Shown: one piece after another, positions 16,701 through 63,266 of the stretch | Layout of the letters: every line of letters begins with the position of its first letter | Numbering within the stretch: the stretch's first letter is position 1 | Assembly: GCF_029873635.1 (NCBI RefSeq) | Contig: NC_080426.1 | Location: forward strand, 50,854,093-50,918,092 | Direction: 5' to 3' | Origin: Malania oleifera | Lineage: Eukaryota > Streptophyta > Magnoliopsida > Santalales > Ximeniaceae | Length of the DNA: 64,000 nt | The notes under the pieces: generated by a model | Seen by the model: the letters and a program-made list of their open reading frames with translations, nothing else | What the model was told of the DNA's origin: nothing | Database searches by the model: none | Position numbers and translations under genes: made by a program

Positions 16701-18905
16701 TTCAATCGGCTGATGGTGCTGCAGGAGTGATGCTACAACATGCCTCCTCAAACTACTTGCACTTTCTGGCTGGAACAAGAAGCAGGACACAGATCAGTTA
16801 CTTAGTGGGGTTTTAAAAACACACAAACACACACACACACACACAAAAAATCAACTGATGAAGCTACCACGAGTTCCAGAGACCTAAAAAGATAAAACAC
16901 TCATGGTACATGCAAACAAGTGGGCACAAACAGAGCAAGAGACAATTCACAAGCATTCACCAACAGGGTATGAAATCATCCTGACAATTAAAAGTATATA
17001 ACCATAGTCTTAAATATCTACAAAATTGTCAAAATTTTCATTGAAATTTCCACTTTGAAATCTCCAATTTTCAAATTTTCAGCGAAATTTGTTGAGATTT
17101 TAACTGTAGAAAGAATTTCACTTGAAATTTAAATAAAGACTCAAAGCTCAAATTGGAATTTATCTCTTAATCCATCTTATTTTCTTATTGAAGTAAATGA
17201 TTTTTTTTTGGGCTAACCCCGAACTCAGCCCTCCAAAAACCAACCCCTCCCCCCACAGCGCCAAATTGGAGGACGCGACCAGCCCCACAGCTCCCTCCTG
17301 ATAAATCAAAGACTGACCTTTGTGCAAAATTGAACCTAAGAACTCCTATTAACAAGAAGCCACCCACTCATGTCCACTTGAGCCAATCCCCAGGGGCAAT
17401 TGAAACTAAAGATTATTACATATAGGATATGGATAGCTTTTCAAAACTTTTGAAGTTATATAAAATAAATAAACTTTGACATTAGTTACAACTTTTTATT
17501 TGACTATTTATGTCTAAGTTATCTATATGTAGATTTATGAACTTCATTTTATCAATTGAATATATTAAATATCACTATTATATTATAGTTATTGTACCTT
17601 ATACAACACATAACTGTCCTTGGTGTATTTTATCTATAATATTTTTAATTCTACAAATTGCATTAAAATCAAAATCTGCATTGAAGCCCCAAAATTTTAT
17701 GCGAAATCAAAATTTAAGACCTCGAGTATAACCTCCTTTCATTTTTCAGAAACTAAACTCACAAATTTAGCCACCCCATGTCCCTTAAGAGACAACAGTT
17801 TGAATATAGGACATCCATATTGGACGTCTCTAGTTCAAGGATGTAGAGGGGCTTGGGATGAAGTGAGGGTTGTGGCCAGTGCAGAATAAGTTTGCATTTC
17901 CAATTCTGCAAGATCGACAACAACTAATGCCAAATGGCTGGGTGCATGATCTAATCAAGTTTAAAAAGGATGAACCCAACAATGAAGTTTCTAGTTTCTC
18001 CACCTTCCTCCTAAAAAAGCAAATATATGAAGAGATTCATTCTCATTAAAATTATATAAGCAACACAGATAAGTGCAATTGGAGATCTGAAAGGACATAA
18101 CTACATAAGAAAGATTTGAATCAAATACACGAACAGAGACAGCACCCAATCATAGTTTTAGCAGACAATAGGAAGAAATAACCAAATAGCTAATCTTCTA
18201 AACTTACGGATGAGAAAGCAACAAAACTAGAGAATTAAGCAGCATCATAATACAAAAATTTAAGCTAAAGGAATGCTAACTGATACTAATTTCGATATTA
18301 AGATGAATCAACCAGTGAAACCAATATCAGCTTAAGATGATAAAATAGCCCCCAACTACATTCCTTACCCATAAAAGTAATAAAGGGGTTCAGAAAGGAA
18401 ATTAGAAAATGAAAAAACAGCAAACACCTTTGGATTCAGAAAACATAACTGAACTAGGCTGTAAATCAAAACCTAAAACAAAAAACAAAAAATCCCAAAT
18501 GAAAATGAAGGATGGTGTGTTATATGGTACCTGAGCGGTTGGGCTATGGGGAGGGTCGTGAGGCAAGTGAGTGGTGGGAAGCTCAAAGGATTGGTCCTTG
18601 AAGCGATGGCGGCGTCGGCGGTGGGGAAGTCCTTTGCTCATCTTAGAAAGAGGGAGGTGGGGCTGAATTTCCCAGAGGTTAGCGCCCAGCTTTCTGGCAG
18701 AGACGGTGGCCCTGAAGCCAGGTTGTTTGATGGAATTGACGCGGCCATCATCATCATCATTATCACCAGAGAACCCAATTCTCCATGTGGGCGATGGAGT
18801 GCAAGGGCCCCCTCTTTTCCCTACCAAACCTCCGCGTTTCAACTTTTTCCCCATTACTCCCTGCTTTTCCGCCTCCCTCTCTTTACCCTTTTCTTCTCTC
18901 TCCAT
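13797..18905 (-). CDS. Coiled-coil protein of the At5g41620/At3g11590 family (3 exons)
   Basis: Minus-strand coding exons are 18531-18905 (start; MGKKLKRGG at 18854 is an alternative start), 16644-16769 and 13797-15350. Donors are CAG|gtaccata and GAG|gtagaaag; acceptors are ttccag|CCAGAA and ttacag|GTGGCA. All junctions are phase 0. Joined length is 684 codons (667 from the second ATG). The N-terminus has the family box GGPCTPSPTWR and SARKLGANLWE. Exon 2 gives SLRRHVVASLLQHHQPIERN and SPASYSSSME. Exon 3 continues VAPYNPVVPP, then TELLKVLNHIWSLEEQHASN, a long coiled coil (about residues 200-420 of the joined protein) with KLVRKSKEQDRI, ARELSEVKSSFS, LLEDLCDEFAKGI and HISEAWLDERMQMKL, and a polar, poorly ordered tail. 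The family is plant-specific and of unsettled function; members are often labelled 'intracellular protein transport USO1-like' by coiled-coil similarity only. The first intron is about 1.8 kb, the second about 1.3 kb. No break is seen. Confidence 0.9.
15351..16643 (-). other. Intron 2 of the At5g41620-like gene
   Basis: Non-coding on both strands. It starts gtagaaag at 16643 and ends ttccttacag at 15351 (minus strand). It holds a short CAGCAG/CAACAA repeat at about 16060-16090; the 63-codon frame over it has no family resemblance. Confidence 0.8.
16770..18530 (-). other. Intron 1 of the At5g41620-like gene
   Basis: Non-coding. It contains a CA microsatellite at about 16820-16845, an AAATTT-rich patch at 17020-17130, and no recognised transposon. 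Open frames at 17185-17367 and 17510-17889 show no family resemblance. Confidence 0.75.
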
Positions 18906-19400
18906 CTCTCCCTGTCTCCCTCTCTTTCTCTTCCAATTTCAAACTCTGGGTCATTCACTTCTCCTTTTCACCCTTTCTTTCTTGACCCATACCATCATAC
19001 CAACATCTGTGTAGCTCTCTTTATCTCTGTCTCTCTCTGTTCATTTCTTGGGTCATAGCTCACCACCCATATCTCCCAAGTTCGATTCCGGGCTTCTTCC
19101 TTCCTTCCACGGTGACCCTTGCCCTGTGTTTGTTCGTTTGTGCAGCGACCCTTTACTCTCTATCTCCTACAACCTCAGATGGATGCACAGTGGACTGGTG
19201 CCTGGTTTCGAAAAGCTAAATTTGAGTGATTATGAAAAGAAAGAAACAGGGGAGGGGGGAGGGATGGTGATGATGATGGCTAATGTTTGTTTTTGGGGAA
19301 GATTAAAAGGTGATTTGGGTGTTAACCCTGTGGTTGACACAGGTGAGTCGAGATTGGTTAGTGGGCATGGAGGAGTGTGAGTGTAGGAGAAGAGCAGCAG
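18906..19400 (-). promoter_or_regulatory. Leader and upstream region of the At5g41620-like gene, GA-rich transcript leader
   Basis: The plus strand from 18845 to 19060 is almost pure pyrimidine (CTCTCT/TTTCCC runs), so the transcript leader would be GA-rich. Similar GA-rich leaders and promoter tracts are common upstream of plant housekeeping genes. The 110-codon open frame at 19049-19380 shows no family resemblance. No convincing TATA box was found. Confidence 0.45.
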
Positions 19401-19689
19401 CACTGCCAGCACCTGGCTTCTTGGTTGACACGTTTTGCTGTCCTGTTCACGACCTTTGTTGCTACTGGTCGATGGTCCAGTAGGGTGTCAGAGGCCCAGT
19501 GGTCGAAACTAACCACAGCATGTTATTGTTGCCGTTGCTCTGATCATGAATTTTGATCCTTCCAAGTTTCAAGCATGAGATGAGCCCAATTCCAATTCCT
19601 CCAGGGCTCCCTGTCCAAGGGAAAGTCAGTAACTTGCTGGGCTATTCCCATCTGCAGCCCAAGGTCCAATAGGCATTATAGTAAATTCA

Positions 19690-20825
19690 AAAGGGCCAAA
19701 AAAGAAAGAGTTTTTTCCCGTTTTATTATTAAAAATAAATAAAATATTAAATAATACTCTGATTGGGAAAAATTTTCCGAAACTAATGCTCACGTAATCT
19801 CGCAGTTTGATGCTGCGAGATTTAAACTGATAAGCCACTGGAAAATTAACACGTGGCACGGAGAGGAGCAAATCTCGCAGCTTGGAGCTGCGAGATTTAA
19901 AGGGAGCAGCCAGTGAAAAAGTGACCTGTGGCAAGGGCCGGAGCAAATCTCGCAGCTTGGAGCTACGAGATTTAAACCAGAGAGAGCAGAGAGGATGAGA
20001 GATTGCAGAGGGGATGGGAGATTGCAGAGATTGTAGTTGGGATGTTTCATAATTTTGTATTGTATTTTCACAATTTACAGCTGAAAGCATGGGCGATGGC
20101 TGTAGTCAAAAAAAAGGCTGATGAAGAATGAAGCTAACCAAACATTACCCAGAATTATAAGAAACCCATCATTACAATAATCATCCACAGAGAAGAAATT
20201 CTTTAGAAGAAAAAAAAAAAAAATGAATCAGCTACATTTAGAAGAATCACATGATTGAAGGAGAGAATAGATTACATACCTGTTATCTTCATCATTCCAA
20301 GTGTATCCAACTAGAACACAGGGCTGATCCTGAGCTTGACCCTCTCCCAATTTATGATAAAGCTCGCCGGATCCGATCAACTGCAAATCTTGCAGAAGGA
20401 TCACATCATGTTTCTGCACATCCTCTGCGCTCTTCTTCCCTCCAACCAAGGCAGCCACAGCTTCCCACCGATGCGGGTCACCTGCACTCTGTGCAATCTC
20501 CCGTCCCCTCTACACTCGCTGACTCCCGCTTTAAATCTCGCAGCTTGGAGCTGCGAGATTTGCTCTAACTCCTGCCACACGTCACCTTCCCACTAGCTGC
20601 TCCTTTTAAATCTCGCAGCTTGGAGCTGCGAGATTTGCTATCTTCCGTGCCACGCGTCAACTTTGCAACGGCCCATCAGTTTAAATCTCGCAACTTCATG
20701 CTGTGAGATTACGTGAGCATTAGTTTGGGAAAAAATTTCCTATTCAGAGTATTATTTTATATTTTATTTCTTGGTAATTATAAAACGGGAAAAAACTCAA
20801 AAAAGAAAAGCAATTTGGGCTCTTC
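19690..20825. mobile_element. Large-TIR transposon carrying a captured gene fragment (Pack-type)
   Basis: The left arm (about 19690-20030) and right arm (about 20485-20825) are inverted copies of each other. Both read GAGTTTTTTCCCGTTTTAT, then an AAATATTA-rich stretch, then AAACTAATGCTCACGTAAT, then three spaced palindromes of the form AAATCTCGCAGCT...AGCTGCGAGATTT, then GGGAGATTGCA. Palindromes lie at about 19797, 19869, 19947 (left) and 20532, 20606, 20680 (right). Between the arms is a fragment of a spliced host gene (20280-20485). Long inverted arms with a gene fragment inside fit a Pack-MULE-like or foldback element; I could not fix the target duplication, so the superfamily is unproven. 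Confidence 0.72.
20280..20485 (-). pseudogene. Captured exon fragment resembling a RADIALIS-type MYB/SANT gene
   Basis: On the minus strand the translation reads GDPHRWEAVAALVGGKKSAE, continues DVQKHDVILLQDLQLIGSGE, and ends at NDEDNR followed by a splice donor (AACAG|gtatgtaat at 20279). RADIALIS/DIVARICATA-type single SANT domains have the same layout: D..RW..VA..VGGKSAEDV..H...LL.DL..I.SG. Only the second half of the domain is present; there is no start codon or N-terminal W-T/S-E-N half, and the intron runs into the left arm of the transposon. It is a captured fragment, not a working gene. The assignment to this family is by eye. Confidence 0.6.
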
Positions 20826-21239
20826 TTTGAAAACCACTTTGGACTTCCTTAACAACACTGACTCAGTGACTAGCAAATATATTGGGCTTAGAACATTATT
20901 TAGACCTATTAGTAAAAAACCTACAACTGTTTACTTGCGAGGGAAAAATTGATAATTGTCAAAGTGATAAAAATAAAAATATCAATTTTGCTCTTCATTT
21001 TTTAAGTAAAGTTAACTTTCGTTCATGTTCTAAAACTTAAAATCAATCTCCTTAACTTGCGTGTCCCTGTCTTCCTGGAGCGTTTGATCTAGCTGCATGA
21101 CCGTTTAGTTATAGTCGTTGAGTAATGAATTGTTGCTACACTAATATTATTTCATAATGGCATAGCCTATATACATACAATTTCGGGACGAATCAAGGAA
21201 TAAAAAGGGTTACAACTAATTACAATTAAAACAAAAAAG

Positions 21240-22289
21240 GAATATATTTGTTACAACTTCTTTGGACTATAACTGGGCTTGTTATAGTAGCTAATACGCC
21301 CCCTCGAGTTCAAAGGGGTGTCAACCACTTTGAGACTCATTGTAAAATGATTAAACTTGTCTGCAACTAATGGTTTGGTAAGAATGTCTGCTAGTTGATC
21401 TTTGGAGCTGCAAAAGGAAATTATGAGTGTGTTGGCAGCGACATGATTCCGAACAAAATGGTAGTCGATGTCCATGTGCTTGGTTTTTGAATGAAACATA
21501 GGGTTGGCACAGAGGTATGTAGCACCAAGATTGTCACACTAAAGCTTAGGAGCTTGAGGTAAAAATAGACCAAGTTCCTTGAGAAGAGACTAAAGCCAAA
21601 TTAATTCAGCTGTTGAGGATGCTAAGGATTTGTATTTAGCTTCAGTGGATGATCTGGCTACTGATTTCTGTTTCTTAAAGCTCCATGAAATGAGATGATT
21701 ACCAAGGAAGATGCAAAAGCCCCACTGGTTAATCGACGATCATCTAGACAACCACCCCAATCTACATCAGAATAAGCATGAAGAACAAAACTTGAGTGAG
21801 AAGTAAAAAATAAACGATGGTTGATTGTTCCCTTGAGATATCGTAGGACTCTTTTAAGTGCACTCCAATGAGTGAGTTTGGGCGAGTGCCTGAACTGACA
21901 AAGCTTATTTACAGCAAAAGAGATATCTAGTCGGGTGAAATTGAGGTATTGAAGACCTCCAACTAGGCTATTATAGAGAACTAGAGCATCAAAATTAGGT
22001 GAATCAAATTTGGAAAGCTTGAGTGATGCAGCCATAAGTGAGGACATGGGTTTGCATTGAAGCATGTTGCTTCGAATGAGTAGGTTGTTGATATATTTTC
22101 GTTGGGAGATGAATAGACCAGCTGCAGTATGATCAATTTCAACACCCAAAAAGAAGGATAAATTTCCAAGATCTCGAACAAGAAAAGCATTACTCATGGC
22201 AGCAATCAAGGTATCAATATCAGAGGAGTTAGATTCAGTAATGACAATGTCATCAACATAGACAAGCTGAAAAATTTTAGCAGTAGTAG
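21240..22289 (-). mobile_element. Ty1/copia pol fragment: reverse transcriptase end and RNase H (fossil)
   Basis: Minus-strand translation gives the copia signature DLGNLSFFLGVEI and HTAAGLFISQRKYI, then VNKLCQFRHSPKLTHW, LKRVLRYLKGT and AYSDVDWGGC, and finally KTKHMDIDYHFVR and DQLADILTKPL at 21251-21500. The reverse-transcriptase active-site stretch (a VDDIVIT-like reading) lies near 22245. The fragment stops where the LTR at 22290 begins. It is broken, with a few breaks. No LTR of its own was confidently identified. Confidence 0.88.
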
Positions 22290-24331
22290 TGTTGACCTTA
22301 TAGGTCAGATCTCATTTTGATTATGAAAAATACCTTGGTACCTAATGTTTGATGAGTTTGTGTGCAGGATCAATTGGAGGTTTCTATATGATGCACATGA
22401 ACTTGAAGAAAATAAAGACCTTGAAGACTATTTTCATTTTGTAATTCATTTTAATTCAATGAGAGTCTGTAATAGTAATTAGAAGAAAAGGTTTGTAATA
22501 ATTATCAGCATATCATGCATATAGGTTAAATTGTAAGCTCAAAAAGACCTAGAATGACCCTAGAACCCACATGCATGCATAATGAAATGTGCTTATATGA
22601 ATAGGGTTATTGTATAAGGGGATTAGAATGAAATGCATAAAAAAAAATGCATGTTCGGTCGATCGAACTAGAATGTATAAGAACATTTGGTCGACCGAAC
22701 CGGTCAAAGGTTAACATTTTGACCATAGCTCGGTCCACCGTACCATGCCAAGTTCATACAACTTGATCGGCTGAACTCCCACCAGGTCAATGTTTTGACT
22801 CCTCGATCGACCGACTAGATTTATACGAGCAACGCTCTGGTCAACCAAATCCCCATGTGGGAGAATCCAACTATGCAATCGACCAACCTACCTAGTTCAA
22901 AATCACCTAGTCGACCAAACTACGTTGAATTGGAAAAATCGCCCTTGAGACCCTTAGTCCGGTCTACCGAACTCTCAGTTCATTTTTTGAACGGTCGACC
23001 GAACTCTATCACTTGGTCAATCGAACCTTAAGTTTGGTCGACCAGTGTTCTCGGGTTGGACAATTTTTTTACCGCAGTTAAATTTTTTAAAAGGGGTTAA
23101 CTTTGCTAAAACGTTCTTAAACAATCCTAATAATACCCCAAATGTCCTAAACAATTATATTTTTGCCTTTGTCTATAAATATGAGTTCATTTGTAAGGAT
23201 TAAGCAGAGATTAGCAAAAATCATTAGCCAAAATCCTCTCTATTTCAAAATCCTATTTTGCTCAAACAGTCTCAAATATTCATTCCCTTGATACATCCTA
23301 GTAGTGTGAGAGCTTATTAATTGTGCTTGTGATTACTAGATATTGCTAATACTCCCATAGTTTTGATTGATTATTTGATATTGATTTTGGGGAGTTTAGC
23401 TAAGTTTTATCTCACAGATTTGAACGTTATAAATCTTGTTTTGGGATAAACTAGCAAGCTTAAGAATCTTTGCATTGTCATTGCAAGATTCCTATAGCTT
23501 TGTTTTTTTTGTGCAAACATATTTTCTACAAGTTATAATATTTTTCAAACTACTCTTATAGTCATTTCATTGAAAGAAATCTTTTGAGGTAGTTTGATTA
23601 TTTGATCAACATCTTTGAAACTCTGATTTGTTGTTGAAATTTGATATAACTTGTTTCAAAGTTATAACTTGATTAGAATACTCATGAGCATACGTGTTAT
23701 CATATCTTGTTGAGTGTTGCTTGGACAAAGACACACATCACTGAACTTACATTTACCTATACTATTGATGTGCATTAATTGATTGATTATACTGTGCTTA
23801 GTGGTACATAATCTGCTTAGTATACGAAGCATATTTCCTAGTACACAAAAATTGTATTACACATTTTTTGTATTCTAGGCACGAGCCTGAAAAGGGAGAC
23901 TAGCCCTAGTAAATAGTCTCGGATTGGCTTAAACCTAGTTAGGAAAGTTAGATGCACCATCCTAGTAAGGTGTAGGTTGAGGTCAGCCCCGTTAATTGAC
24001 CTGGTTGTAACCGGTGCCGCGCTACCCATTAAGTGAGCATTAGTGGAATCCTCGGGCTTGCGAGCTAGAGGTGGAGACATAGGCACAGTTGGCCGAACCC
24101 CGATAACATATCGTGTGTCTTTTTATATTTCCGCAATTTATATTCCTACACATGTATGTTATTGTGTGAATGATGTGCATGATTTAAAATTCCTCTTACT
24201 ATACTTATCTGCGCATTTGGGATTACATAGACAGACTCTAGGTTGTGTAATAGTGCAAATGTCTTGTCAAACCTAGGAGAAATTTTAAAAACTCAATTCA
24301 CCCCCTTCTCAGGAATACACCAATTCTAACA
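22290..24331 (+). repeat. 5' LTR of element C
   Basis: Starts TGTTGACCTTATAGGTCA and ends CCAATTCTAACA directly before the primer site. It carries a cluster of GGTCGACC/GGTCGATC-like motifs at about 22650-23050 and a TATA-like GTCTATAAATATGAG near 23172. Same family as the solo LTR at 7873-10126 (reversed). Confidence 0.85.
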
Positions 24332-41998: not shown

Positions 41999-42008
41999 CT
42001 ATTTAAGG
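41999..42008 (+). promoter_or_regulatory. TATA box of the MIR159 locus
   Basis: CTATTTAAGG, followed about 25-30 bp downstream by a pyrimidine-rich CTTCTCCCCACTTGTCTCAC suitable for a start site near 42030. It lies 150 bp upstream of the miRNA hairpin. Confidence 0.6.
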
Positions 42009-42147
42009 AGCCTTCTTCTCCCCACTTGTCTCACGCCAGACAGCTAGATCAAGCAAATTAAGCTGCCTTAGCTTGCATTCAAATAATAGTTGCTGTTATT
42101 ATTAAGTGTAAGAGTACTTGTCAATAGGTAGAGGTAGGGGTAGGGTT

Positions 42148-42345
42148 TTAGTAATTGGAGCTTCTCTCCACTCCAATTTTGAGGAGAAATGAGAGTGTTC
42201 CATGGCTGCTAGTTCATGAATGCCCCTGGGTGCGCAGGATTCTGAAGTTGCGGTTGCGCAGGCTAAGGGTGGGCATGAGCCAGGAGACATGGTTACCTTG
42301 ATCTTTTCTGGATTGGAGTGAAGGGAGCTCCATTATGCATGGCTC
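42148..42345 (+). ncRNA. MIR159: MIR159-family microRNA precursor
   Basis: The 21-nt mature miRNA lies on the 3' arm at 42312-42332; its core TTGGAGTGAAGGGAGCTCC is the legume/grape-type miR159 variant. The 5' arm at 42154-42177 (ATTGGAGCTTCTCTCCACTC...) is its imperfect complement, so the ends pair. The interior also folds back: CATGGCTGCTAGTTCATG (about 42202) opposes CATGAGCCAGGAGACATG (about 42274). The near-200-nt hairpin with the mature strand near the 3' base is the miR159/miR319 layout. miR159 represses GAMYB-like MYB mRNAs (known biology). A TATA box lies at 42000. No protein frame here is meaningful. Confidence 0.88.
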
Positions 42346-42606
42346 CTTCCCAAACACCCCTCTTTAATTCCCTCCTCCATTTTTCTTCTTCTTCTTCTTC
42401 TTCTTCTTCTTTATCCGTGGCTCCTTCCCAAACACCCCTCTTTTAATTTCCTCCTGCATTCTTCATCTTCTTCTTCTTCTTCTTCTTTATCCATGGCTCC
42501 TTCCCAAAGACCCCTCTTTAATTTTCTCCTCCATTCTTCTTCTTCTTCTTCTTTATCCATGGCTCCTTCCCAAACACCCCTCTTTAATTTCCTCCTCCAT
42601 TCCTCT
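42339..42606 (+). repeat. Minisatellite, four units, directly after the MIR159 hairpin
   Basis: Units start at 42339, 42417, 42493 and 42559 with TGGCTCCTTCCCAAACACCC followed by CTCTTTAATTTCCTCCTCCATT and a CTT microsatellite of shrinking length. Unit lengths are about 78, 76, 66 and 48 bp. The first unit starts 6 bp after the mature miRNA. Confidence 0.92.
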
Positions 42607-42630
42607 GTACGTGTTATTTGATTGTGATTT

Positions 42631-42750
42631 GAAATATGATATCCATCTACTTTGATTTTTCAAAAATATATTTGTTTTTTAGTTTCAGCTGAAATATGAT
42701 ATCCATCTACTTTGATTTTTCAAAAATATATTTGTTTTTTAGTTTCAGCT
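42631..42750 (+). repeat. Perfect 60-bp tandem duplication
   Basis: The unit GAAATATGATATCCATCTAC...TTTTTAGTTTCAGCT occurs at 42631-42690 and again without change at 42691-42750. Confidence 0.95.
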
Positions 42751-43011
42751 GAAACTTTTTTGTTAAAAACGAAAGAAAGAAGGAAAGAAAGAAAGAAAAG
42801 CATTTTGATCGGCTGTTTCCAAATCTCTGAATTAGAAATATTTAGAAATAGTTTGGAAGAAGGCGTAAGCTGATCTGTATATGATTTTTGAAATTATATT
42901 TTGGTAATTTAGTTTCAAAAAACAAACAGAAGAAACCAACACACAATATTCTTACAATTCCATCCTTCGTTTCCCCATTTCAATGTAGATATATATGTTC
43001 ATCACTAGTTC

Positions 43012-57400: not shown

Positions 57401-60400
57401 TTAAATGAAGCCCATCTTTCTTCTATTAAGATGTGTAGATTCATATTATGTTATGTTTGGGCTTATTGATTATTCACAAATTAGCATAAAAAATCTTATC
57501 CAAAGAATATCAATTCACTAACAATTGAAAACATGTCTAGTATAAAGTATGAAACTAAATTTTAATTAGTAGAATTAACAAGAATATATATATGTGTTAT
57601 ATATATATATAGGCTCTAGGCTCTATAAAAAGAAAAGATGTCTCATATTTTTCTGTGGCCTCTATTTCCATTTCAAACATAGTTCTAAATATTTTAGTTG
57701 TTTCTTTCAAATTATTGACTCCATGTGCCATCCCTTTCTAGAAATACGCAAGCTGTGTTTCTTCATTTGCATTTTGAGCTATAGATTATTATAATATTCT
57801 GACCCTGCATTTGGGATCATGGACTTCTGGGCTTAGATTTGGATATCAGTGGATTTGGATGGAACACAATATAATTTTTGTATTACATTTTGTCCAAATC
57901 CACCCAAATTCAAATCCAAGACCTAAAATCCATGCTCCCAAACACTACATGGGTTTTTCTCATTCTCTTGCTTTTTGTTAGTAGTTCTCATTTTGGCCTT
58001 CAAAACTTTATAATAGAACCAACAAGAACAACCAGATGACCTTCTATGTCATTTTATGCGACAGTGGCTAAAAAACTAAACAAAACATAACTTAAAAAAT
58101 TAAGAGAGAGAGAGAGATCTGGTTACCCAAAAAGCATGAACAGCCAAATGATAGTTTGAAGTTTGAGAATGCAGGTTTCCTATTTTACTTAATATTTCTT
58201 GAAGTTCTCCAGAGAATTATTCCAATGTGTACAGAGGATAAAAGGTTAAGAAAACATGGGAAAAAGGTGGATGGATAACCTGTCTTTAGTGAAATGGACA
58301 GAAATGTCTCCTGTTTCTTCGATGGCTAAAACTCCACAATTCCTACTCGAAAGAATTTCAAATTCCCAATGGTCGGGAGAATCTCAAACCATTAGATGTG
58401 TAACTATCTAGCCAATTCTTCACAGGAGAATTTAAAGAATACTTCTTTGAACATCCTAATAAGTTAGTTCTTGGCCAAGTTGAAAATTCAAACCCCACTA
58501 ATGCAAAACAAAGTGAATCTTAATATCCATGATTCTTGATTTTTATGAATCAGTTTTGGGTGTCAAGTTCTTTTGAAAATAGTTCCAAATCTAAGGAACC
58601 TTTTAGGTTTTCTATGTCTAGTTGCACAAAAGTTGCAAATACTCCAAACATCAATGGGACTAAAATGCAAACTGATGAGATGGAAGGCTAGTGGTACAAG
58701 GCAAGAAGAAAGAAAAAAATAAGCAGAGCAAAAGGAAGAGAGGGTTTTTTACTGTTTTAGTCAACCAAATTGTAGTCAGAAATTGCTCTGCTGTCATTTC
58801 AGAGAGATCAATGGGAGAGCATAATGTAGAGAGGGTATTAACTGCTAGATCAGCCAAAGCAGCTTGGAGAATTTAATAAAAAATGACTTGAATAAATGTA
58901 TGTAATTTTTTTTGGACAGAGTTCCAATGAGTGGGTAATTAGAAGAGGGAAACATTGACTGAGGGATAGAGAGAGGGAGTATTGAAATTTTCCTTTCAGT
59001 AGCTGTTAAATGAATGCAATGAAGAACACACTTTGGGCTGACATGTGAAAACAAATGTGACTTCGCTTTTTAAAATTGTCATGTTGGTGTAAACTTAAAA
59101 TTGCTTTTGTTGAGCTCTTCTGATCTATTTATTAGCGCCAGAAATAGAAATTAATTTTTTCACTTGTGTGGCGGTAGGAACTTTGTTTACCCTTGTGAAG
59201 CTCATGATTACCAACTCTGATATCTGTTTGCTGCACAGAATTTATGCCTAGTTTTTAGTTTCAGGCGATGAAGCTGCAAACAGCAATGATTTGACCTGGA
59301 GTATGGATTGCTCTACTGTTTTGAAAGTTCAAACATTACACATTAGTTCTCCTATTTTAGCTGCAAAAAGTCCATTTTTCTATAAGGTAGGTCATTGTTT
59401 TTGTGAAATGGGTTCGATAGTTGTTAAATTCACTTGAAGTTGTTTATTTCTTCCAATTTTTATTGCTTAATATTTATTTATTTATTTATTTTTTATATAG
59501 CTGTTCTCAAATGGGATGAGGGAGTCAGAGCAAAGACATGTAACCTTACGAATTAATGCCTCAGGTATGAGATGTCACCCTCCCCTCTTGCTAATTCATT
59601 GTTGGTCTCATGTAACTAATATTCTAAGTTTTTTTTTTAAGCTGATAGAAGTATGTTATATGGTGTAATTTATGTCATAAATACATAAAGTACTTTTTAG
59701 TTTCTTTCCATGGTAAATATTTGTTGCTTCTGTAAATAAACTCCTGTAATTGTACAAAGCTGCTTCATGCTCATTTTAGTCACCTTCTTTCTTTTGAACA
59801 GAAGAAGCTCCTCTAATGGAGCTCCTGAATTTCATGTATAGCAATACCCTATCTACAACTACAGCTCCTGCTTTGCTGGATGTGCTGATGGCTGCTGACA
59901 AGTTTGAGGTTGCTTCGTGCATGAGATATTGTAGCCGACTGTTGAGGAACTTGCCCATGACACCTGAATCAGCATTGCTATATCTAGAGCTTCCTTCCAG
60001 TGTCTTAATGGCTGAAGCAGTCCAACCTTTGACAGATGCAGCAAAACAGTATTTAGCTGCTCGATACAAGGACATAACCAAGTAAGCTTCTCTTCTGCAT
60101 GAAACAACTCGCCACCATGCACACAAAAAAATAAAAGGCTTATGCCCCTCTTGGGTTGTGGAATCAGACTTCAAATGGAATCAAATCTCAGGAATGGAAT
60201 TGCCTTCCTGCATTTGGTATGCAGAATCAGGACAGAATCATATTCTGGCTGGAATATGATTCCTGCGAATAGGGGAATCACGGTTCTAGTCCAGATAGGC
60301 TGGAATCAATTTTTATTCCATGGAATGAGATTCATTTTATGATAAAAAAAAAATCTAAAAACAACAACACATGCTAATAATACTAATTATTATTACTATT

Positions 60401-60745
60401 ATAATAAAAATAATAACTAATAATAATTGCAATAATAATAAATAATATTTATTATTTCATATACTAAAAAAGGCTTAAATAATAATAATTATTGTAAGGA
60501 TAATAACTATTATAAAAATAATAAAAAATAATAACTACAATAAAATAATATTTATTATTGTAAAATAATAATAGCAACAAGTCAACAATAATTATAAAAA
60601 GGCAAAAATAATAGTAATTATGATTTCAAGGACAATAATTATTATAAAAATAGTAAAGTAGTAATGATAACAATAAAAAATAATAATTACACTGATAATA
60701 ATCACTATTATGTAAATAATAAAAAATTATAATAAAGCAAAAACA

Positions 60746-60784
<39 letters not shown>

Positions 60785-63266
60785 TGTTGTTGTTGTTATA
60801 TAAAAAGAATAAAAATTAATAATAATTTACAATAACAATAATAAAAACTAGTAATAATATATCTCTACTATTAAAATAATAATAAATAATAAATAATTAT
60901 TAATGTTATTTTAAGGATACTAATTATTATTAAAGTAATAAAAAAATAATAACAACTAATAATAACTACAATGAAAATAATATTTATTATTGTAAAATAA
61001 TAACATCAAGCGCAATAATAATAAATAAAGGAAAAAATAATAACAATTATTATTTTAAGGATTATAATTATTATAAAAATAATAAAAAGTAGAAATAAAA
61101 TAACAACAATAAAAAATAGTAATTACACTTATGACAATCATTGTTATGAAAATAATAAAAAATAATAATAAAATAGAATCAACAACAAATAATAATACGA
61201 ATTGTTTGTTATTATTATAAAAATAATAAAAACTAATAATAATTAAAATAACAATAATAAAATTTAATAATAATATTTACTTCTATCAAAATAATAGTAA
61301 CAACAATAATAACAATAATAAAAATTAATAAAAATTACCATTATAAAATAAAAAATAATACAAAATTAAATAATTATACATTAGGGATTTTTAATAAAAA
61401 ATCATTGTTTTTCATTCCATTATAGAATCCATTGAAGAATACTAAATGTTGGAAAGAAATTGAAACTGAATTCCTACCGTGATTCCATGTTACTAACCAA
61501 ACGCAGGAATTGCATTCCCTAAGCAATTCCATTCCTACCTTGATTCCATTCTTCCCTCGATTTCTTTCCTGCTTCAATTTCATTCCGCAAATCAAATGGG
61601 GGGTTACTGAATTTGTCCTCTATACATATAAACTTATGCATTTAGCCTGTCTAATTTCTTTTGCCAAGGTTTGCTTCTTGTTTGTTCTTTTATGTGGCTG
61701 GTGGTTGTAGGGAAGTGTTGTTGTGGGAACTGATTTTATGGAGGTACATCTTATTTATCATGATCCAAAAAGTAAAATTTGCCGAGATGAGAATGCTTAG
61801 ATGGATGAGTGGTATAACATTGAAAGATAAATTAAAAAATGAACATATTCGTTGTAAGTTAGGTGTAATTCCTATAGAAGTTAAGATAAGGGAGGGACGA
61901 CTCAAATGGTATGGACACTTGCAACGTAAGCCTTATAGTGCACCTATGAGGAAGAGTGATTTATTTATTGTGGGGGGTAGTAGAAGAGGTAGGGGTAGAC
62001 CTAAAATAACTTGAGAGGAGATAGTGAGTAAGGATTTAATATTCTTGAATCTATCAAAAGAAATGGTCCATGATCTCATAAATTAGCGGAAAAGGATTCA
62101 TATAGCTGACCCCACTTAGTGGGACTAAGGCTTGGTTTTGTTGTTGTTGTGTTGTATCTTATTTATCATGAGAATTTGTCATCTTAGTTTCATTGCTCAT
62201 GAAAGGTTGCATCTTGTTTTACTAACTAAAGAAATGCAACCTTTTAAGTAAATTAGCACCTATTCTTTCTTGGCTTGACAAGACTGGATTAAGCTTGATT
62301 TTTTGACCTCTTGTAACATAGAAAGCCAGGCTACCTTCCATTCTGGTTTGTGCGGGTCAATTCAGGATAAGCTCTCTTTTTATCTGATATTAGAGATTAT
62401 TGTCGTTATCATTTGCCATTTTCCTTTTTGAAAGCTTAGCTCTTTTGGTCAGGTTCCATGAAGAGGTGATGGGATTGCCTTTAGCTGGAATTGAAGCAGT
62501 TTTGTCCAGTGATGATCTCCAGGTTGCATCAGAGGATGCAGTATATGACTTTGTATTGAAGTGGGCCAGGGGTCAGTACCCAAAACTTGAGGATCGGCGA
62601 GAAGTCCTTGGTTCACGCCTCGCTCGGTTCATTCGTTTCCCTTACATGACCTGTCGTAAGCTTAAGAAGGTATTAACTTGTAATGACTTTGATCATGACC
62701 TTGCATCCAAGGTTGTGCTTGAGGCCCTCTTTTTTAAGGCTGAAGCTCCACACCGGCAACGAATGCTGGCTGCAGAGGAGTCTGCTGTCACGAATCGCCG
62801 CTTTGTGGAACGAGCCTACAAGTATCGACCAGTCAAGGTGGTCGAGTTTGAACTTCCCCGGCAGCAGTGTGTGGTGTACCTGGATTTGAAGCGGGAGGAG
62901 TGCGCAAATTTGTTTCCATCAGGTCGGGTGTATTCACAGGCATTCCACTTGGGTGGACAAGGGTTCTTCCTCTCAGCGCACTGCAACATGGACCAGCAGA
63001 TGTCTTTCCATTGCTTTGGGCTGTTTTTGGGAATGCAAGAAAAGGGTTCAGTGACTTTTGCAGTAGACTACGAGTTTGCAGCAAGGTCAAAGCCAACGGA
63101 GGAGTACATTAGCAAATATAAAGGCAATTATGTGTTTACTGGGGGCAAGGCAGTTGGCTACCGAAACTTATTTGGCATACAGTGGACTTCCTTCATGGCC
63201 GAGGACAGTCTTTACTTCATAAATGGCAACCTCCATCTCAGGGCTGAGCTTACCATCAGGCACTAA
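51459..63266 (+). CDS. POB1: BTB-BACK protein of the POB1/LRB family (6 exons, 548 codons)
   Basis: Exons: 51459-51705, 56760-56879, 59265-59386, 59501-59564, 59802-60081 and 62453-63266; all introns are GT-AG and the frame is continuous (1647 bases with stop). The N-terminus [20 protein letters not shown] and [20 protein letters not shown] is diagnostic. RHRKRRRED-type basic motif at about residues 70-80 is a likely nuclear signal. The BTB domain (about 140-260) has [20 protein letters not shown] and [24 protein letters not shown] (about 290-390) has [20 protein letters not shown]. The C-terminal part includes [17 protein letters not shown] and [18 protein letters not shown]. Length is close to Arabidopsis LRB1/LRB2 (561). 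Known family role: CUL3 ubiquitin-ligase substrate adaptors acting in the nucleus, with phytochrome B/PIF3 turnover and defence among reported processes. No defect seen. Introns 1, 2 and 5 are unusually long and transposon-rich. Confidence 0.95.
51706..52560 (+). other. Intron 1 of the POB1-like gene, first part
   Basis: Non-coding, T-rich on the plus strand. No repeat recognised before 52560. Confidence 0.6.
52561..54238. repeat. Old repeat in POB1-like intron 1, with direct repeat shared downstream
   Basis: The block 52735-52975 (CACCCTATTTATAAGAAA-like TATA region, then AAATTACRAATGAA and TGAATTAGTCTCCAAC) matches 54985-55510 in the same orientation, as the two LTRs of an old element would. 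The interior has minus-strand frames at 52945-53407 and 53563-53835 that I do not recognise. It is best described as a degraded LTR-type remnant. The assignment is uncertain. Confidence 0.35.
54239..54450. repeat. Left end of a hAT-type MITE-like repeat (degenerate)
   Basis: TAGGGGTGACAAAATTGGTTAAC resembles a hAT-MITE terminus and is followed by GGGTTCGGGTTCGGGTT and AAACGGGTATCCGTT words. No matching right end or target duplication is found. Confidence 0.35.
54525..54935 (+). repeat. Tandem repeat, about 170-bp unit, 2.4 copies
   Basis: The unit CAAGTCAAAATCCCTATGATT ... AGAGCACTAAGCACCAAATCC recurs near 54558, 54713 and 54881, each with GGGGATTTGGCCCTCTT-like sequence and GACGGCAGCAAGGA. 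Units are diverged. Confidence 0.8.
55072..55346 (+). mobile_element. 5'-truncated LINE tail with 15-bp target duplication
   Basis: A 275-bp insert ends CTATTAATGAAATTC, TTTTTTTACTATCCCAAAAAA, as plant L1 3' ends do. It is flanked by CCCTAAAGATGCATG (55057-55071) and CCCTAAAGATACATG (55347-55361), 14 of 15 alike. It splits the direct-repeat copy at 54985-55510. Confidence 0.75.
55455..56340 (+). repeat. Tandem duplication of about 447 bp in POB1-like intron 1
   Basis: GGATCCAACTGTCTCTTGAT near 55459 and GGATCCAACTGTCCCTTGAT near 55906 begin two units that align to their ends (CATGTACCATGTTTCAGAAC-type stretch near 55868 and 56316). By eye about nine in ten positions agree. Confidence 0.85.
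56880..59264 (+). other. Intron 2 of the POB1-like gene
   Basis: GT at 56880 and TTTCAG at 59259-59264. Non-coding. A TA run lies at about 57598-57612 and a GA run at 58105-58117. Short frames inside show no family resemblance. Confidence 0.75.
60143..61603. mobile_element. Harbinger-like TIR element with expanded AAT repeats in intron 5
   Basis: The left end TGCCCCTCTTGGGTTGTGG and the inverted right end (minus-strand CCCCCCATTTGATTTGCGG) match, with GGAAT repeats just inside both arms. The trinucleotide TTA lies on both sides (60140-60142, 61604-61606). The centre (60340-61375) is about 1 kb of degenerate AAT/ATT repeat, including a perfect (AAT)n run at about 60748-60783. No transposase frame. 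The superfamily call rests on a 3-bp duplication and imperfect TIRs. Confidence 0.5.
61745..62152 (+). mobile_element. RTE-type LINE 3' end in intron 5 (truncated)
   Basis: Translation reads [20 protein letters not shown], then [20 protein letters not shown] and [13 protein letters not shown], the C-terminal end of plant RTE reverse transcriptase. It closes with GACCCCACTTAGTGGGACTA and AGGCTTGGTTTTGTTGTTGT, the TTG-type tail of plant RTE elements. It is the same family as the reversed copy at 3600-4228. The frame is interrupted near its end. Confidence 0.85.

Follow-up and report, generated by a model that had tools for sequence, protein, structure and literature searches.

The locus studied here raises the question of whether a hairpin in a stretch of 64,000 nucleotides of Malania oleifera DNA (the window) is a MIR159 gene, and what a G at position 7 of its predicted mature 21-mer would mean for the mRNAs it silences. 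miR159 is a very old plant microRNA, the targets of which are growth-regulating MYB genes.

The hairpin and its predicted microRNA

To classify the hairpin, the window was compared with the Rfam models. Bases 42146-42344 of the plus strand matched RF00638 over its full length (107.7 bits, gathering score 74, E 1.5e-22, model positions 1-196 of 196), and this was the sole match in the window at gathering level among the six with E values up to 0.5, the hairpin included. Rejected as below their gathering scores were the mirror image of the hairpin on the minus strand (63.5 bits), matches to MIR5565 (both strands) and mir-3851 at 57.8 kb, and a match to SCARNA7 at noise level. RF00638 alone cannot separate miR159 from miR319, as miR319-type loci of the same genome pass it as well. 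Coordinates of the features are listed in Table 1.

Folding of 42130-42360 paired the two arms at -101 kcal/mol (z -4.83), a value that was equalled by none of 200 shuffled sequences. The fold of the precursor itself (-87.2) was not reached by any of 320 segments of 199 nt that were sampled every 400 bases on both strands. The hairpin is a single unbranched stem-loop of 80 pairs, all of which were retained in minimum-energy folds with 351, 371 and 611 bases of context; in folds with longer contexts the pairs of the duplex had a mean probability of about 0.90.

The predicted mature microRNA differs from classic miR159 at three of its 21 positions, and such a match was absent from 100 shuffles of the window. 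Of the mature bases facing the star, 18 of 19 are paired: 42312-42320 and 42322-42332 lie in pairs, A42321 is left unpaired, and T42165 is the single bulged star base on the 5' arm. Position 7 of the mature sequence is G (42318) and pairs with C42171 in the star, so that the precursor is consistent with a G7 variant. The exact 19-base G7 core had no match in IMG/VR.

The original prediction of a MIR159 locus with an intact hairpin was borne out by the precursor model, the fold, the duplex geometry, the mature sequence and the grouping of the loci of the same genome described below. Its exact placement of the 21-mer on the 3' arm was confirmed by sequence match and fold, and the printed sequences bear out its statement on the G, which takes the place of a T in classic miR159 and of a C in miR319. 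The partner on the 5' arm had been expected near 42154-42177; the arms do pair, but the star had to be moved to the interval given in Table 1 on the basis of the 2-nt overhangs.

Table 1. Features of the window and related loci in the same genome. Positions without a contig refer to the window.
Feature	Position	Strand	Basis or remark
MIR159 precursor hairpin	42146..42344	+	Rfam RF00638 and fold
Predicted mature miRNA, ATTGGAGTGAAGGGAGCTCCA	42312..42332	+	3' arm by fold; identity to soybean gma-miR159b-3p/f-3p
Predicted star, 22 nt	42158..42179	+	pairing and 2-nt 3' overhangs (predicted)
TATTTAA, possible TATA element (candidate only)	42000..42006	+	motif
Degenerate tandem array, CATGGCTCCTTCCCAAACACCCC... 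plus TTC runs	42338..42606	+	units of about 66-78 bases
Copia-type reverse transcriptase piece	21.7-22.3 kb		Pfam
Transposase_32 piece	26.2-27.0 kb		Pfam
Ty3-type protease, reverse transcriptase and integrase C-terminal pieces	32.7-36.4 kb		Pfam
BACK domain	62.4-63.3 kb		Pfam
T7 locus L003/L009	C1:129010108		64% precursor identity to the window locus
T7 locus L015	C13:75086650		51% precursor identity to the window locus

Family loci in the same genome

The window corresponds to C10:50854093-50918092 of a genome of 1.49 Gb in 510 contigs. When the whole genome was searched with the 231-base hairpin region, a search that skips very common words, the region matched itself and only one other place, the miR159 locus on C1 (79% over about 80 bases), and in this it is unlike a transposon family. 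The exact core TTGGANTGAAGGGAGCTC was found at eight places, which carry T at position 7 (T7) in two cases, C (C7) in four, G in the window locus alone and A (A7) in one, whereas the reversed-pattern control gave none. With up to two mismatches the canonical 19-mer occurred at 18 places, against five for the reversed pattern. These counts are lower bounds, being based on one exact pattern and one pattern with at most two mismatches. All seven T7, C7 and G7 places passed RF00638, while the A7 place failed.

In a FastTree phylogeny of six precursors of this genome, a small set from which the C7 locus L005 was left out because it is identical to L004, the window locus fell together with both T7 loci at a split support of 0.98 and, within these, with the C1 locus at 0.78. 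The miR319-type hairpins L004 and L005 lie about 72 kb apart on C4 and are identical across 197 bases, to be explained either by a recent duplication at this place or as an artefact of the assembly. L023 looks like a further miR319-type place.

G7 forms in other plants

The exact 21-mer was printed in 2008 for gma-MIR159b from soybean roots (PMC2335117), and the same sequence is reported for gma-miR159b-3p/f-3p, the degradome targets of which are MYB33- and MYB65-like (PMC6599275), where the tags do not show which isoform cut; the likeness is one of the mature sequences. G in place of the U of the classic form at position 7 is also given for vvi-miR159a/b of grape (PMC2831844), and G7 further occurs in miR159c of Populus euphratica and ptc-miR159f (PMC8438446, PMC3783389), in zma-miR159h/i of maize (PMC3749131) and in PsmiR159b-3p of tree peony, the reported 21-mer of which begins one base earlier than that of the window (PMC5852092). 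As printed, the grape, poplar, maize and peony 21-mers differ from the window 21-mer at their ends. With an identical soybean 21-mer in print and G7 forms from several plant families, the locus is to be regarded as an ordinary one: at most the locus itself is new, the family and the spelling of the 21-mer being already known.

Surroundings of the hairpin

The original prediction had also described a TATA box, the absence of an overlapping protein gene and transposon-rich DNA. The TATTTAA is present, but this heptamer occurs 55 times in the AT-rich window, counting both strands, and is therefore weak evidence for a promoter; judged by this count, no convincing promoter element was found for the hairpin. 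None of the 27 stop-to-stop frames of at least 120 aa listed in the window lies over the hairpin, so the second statement holds for frames of this length, although four shorter mechanical ORFs (42-62 aa) do overlap it. Ten chosen frames of the window were subjected to a Pfam search, four of them without a match. The Ty3-, copia- and Transposase_32-like pieces that were detected bear out the third statement only in part, the nearest of them ending near 36.4 kb.

The tandem array adjoins the miRNA. Its first copy extends into the stem of MIR159 at the 3' base, and the array appears as if it had grown out of the flank of the precursor. Further downstream, 42630-42754 is a perfect direct duplication of 60 bases (2.1 copies), which is probably recent as its matches are 100%. 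Two short tandem arrays that repeat every 75 bases and have a palindrome-like unit, AATCTCGCAGCTTGGAGCTGCGAGATT, in common were observed at 19796-19977 and 20530-20710, and a degenerate TAA-rich repeat of about 1 kb at 60375-61370. The 123 nt at 57815-57937 form a near-perfect foldback of -46.4 kcal/mol, with MIR5565 matches below the threshold on either strand; it is perhaps a MITE.

Alternative explanations for the locus

Several other explanations of the hairpin were weighed. As RF00638 also accepts miR319-type loci, and as the CTCC at the 3' end of the 21-mer is similar to miR319, the locus might belong to MIR319 or be an intermediate of miR159 and miR319 with TCP targets. However, position 7 is G and not the C that is found at the four C7 loci, and the precursor groups with the T7 loci, at identities of 64% and 51%, as opposed to 47-49% for three C7 loci; membership in MIR319 was therefore set aside as very improbable. 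Even less can be said for a miRNA-like foldback that arose by chance or from an inverted repeat of a transposon. Retroelement pieces do occur in the window, as does at least one further near-perfect foldback (57815-57937), but the E value of the family match, the lack of the 21-mer at three mismatches in the shuffles, the folds of the shuffled sequences and sampled segments and the count of only two genome matches, with the C1 miR159 locus among them, in a search that skips very common words exclude this for practical purposes.

A decayed and unexpressed MIR159 copy, the hairpin of which has not yet drifted apart, would explain the long branch, the identity of no more than 64% with the closest locus of the genome, the extension of the tandem array into the stem base and a promoter that is only a candidate. 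This explanation is improbable, although less so than the two above, given that the 21-mer is unchanged compared with the soybean miRNA, that the C in the star matches G7 and that the fold lies far beyond those of the shuffles. Taken together, we conclude with a probability of roughly 93% that 42146-42344 is a MIR159 gene.

GAMYB-like target sites and predicted binding

For the MIR159 gene to act as known members of the family do, its transcript would have to begin upstream of 42146 and form the hairpin; the 42312-42332/42158-42179 duplex would be cut out by a Dicer-like enzyme, and the 21-mer, once loaded into Argonaute, would silence GAMYB-like R2R3-MYB mRNAs. All of these steps are modelled on the known pathway. 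Pairing and reading frame were inspected at 11 of the 18 places of the canonical 19-mer, the other seven being hairpins already known. A MYB R3 motif in frame was present at only two of the 11, L017 (= L013) and L019 (C2:114571118), the latter with a Pfam match of 18.4 bits, below the cut-off of 24.4. The former is the A7 place (L013/L017, C10:26860259), which, read backwards, is a GAMYB-type miR159 site in an open frame of 353 aa. This frame carries LPGRTDNEIKNYWNTR and KLELPSFQYPE, and a frame or exon upstream of it has Myb domains (E 3.6e-27); based on known GAMYB sequences, we take these three to be marks of a GAMYB gene. The site and the window share a contig.

The window 21-mer matches this site well, with 19 Watson-Crick pairs, one G:U pair and one mismatch at position 20. 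Here the predicted binding energy was -35.4 kcal/mol for the window miRNA with its G7; the T7 members reached -33.0 and -31.2, although the C13 member pairs at position 20, where the window base does not. At L019 the window miRNA reached -30.2 versus -33.3 and -29.9 for the T7 members, and across the 11 places it had the best predicted energy of the three family members at six. The two T7 loci share with the window locus the family, the plan of the precursor and the GAMYB-like target site; they differ from it in that T7 mismatches position 7 of the site, whereas the window G7 can pair G:U.

At GAMYB sites, positions 7 and 20 of classic miR159a are described as conserved mismatches (PMC3953016). 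The window miRNA, with G at 7 and C at 20, would allow a G:U pair in place of the first of these. On the letters printed for the AtMYB104 site in PMC4773123 and the LoMYB33 site in PMC8495421, the predicted energies of the window miRNA were -38.3 and -38.5, respectively, compared with -33.0 and -33.9 kcal/mol for classic miR159. Weaker binding than for the classic form was predicted at the printed AtDUO1 (-27.1 versus -29.3) and AtMYB101 sites (-25.5 versus -28.9).

Discussion

The function of the MIR159 gene, as modelled from its predicted binding and the known pathway, is likely ordinary GAMYB silencing. The energies could also be read to mean that the G7 member has specialised as a tighter silencer of GAMYB, with G7 and A1 improving pairing on the MYB33-type site of this genome and G7 weakening it on DUO1- and MYB101-type sites, so that G7 and T7 members would split the MYB targets between them. 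We consider this doubtful, because factors other than complementarity govern the efficacy of miR159, as a review holds (PMC6724108), and because G7 members are poorly represented in two printed libraries: in the table for a grape leaf library miR159a/b had 0 reads and miR159c 173 (PMC2831844), and in peony the G7 member had 180-496 normalised reads compared with 18,716-22,752 for the T7 member (PMC5852092). No paper on a position-7 wobble of miR159 with GAMYB was found in a search of an open-access library, and the point may already have been published elsewhere.

Described here is a well-formed miR159 locus, and with it a GAMYB-like target site in the same genome to which it can be linked. 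The above review names sub-functionalisation of the poplar, grape, soybean and maize miR159 variants as a remaining possibility (PMC6724108). With one G7 and two T7 loci of distinguishable mature sequence and two GAMYB-like sites in a single genome, such sub-functionalisation could be examined here.
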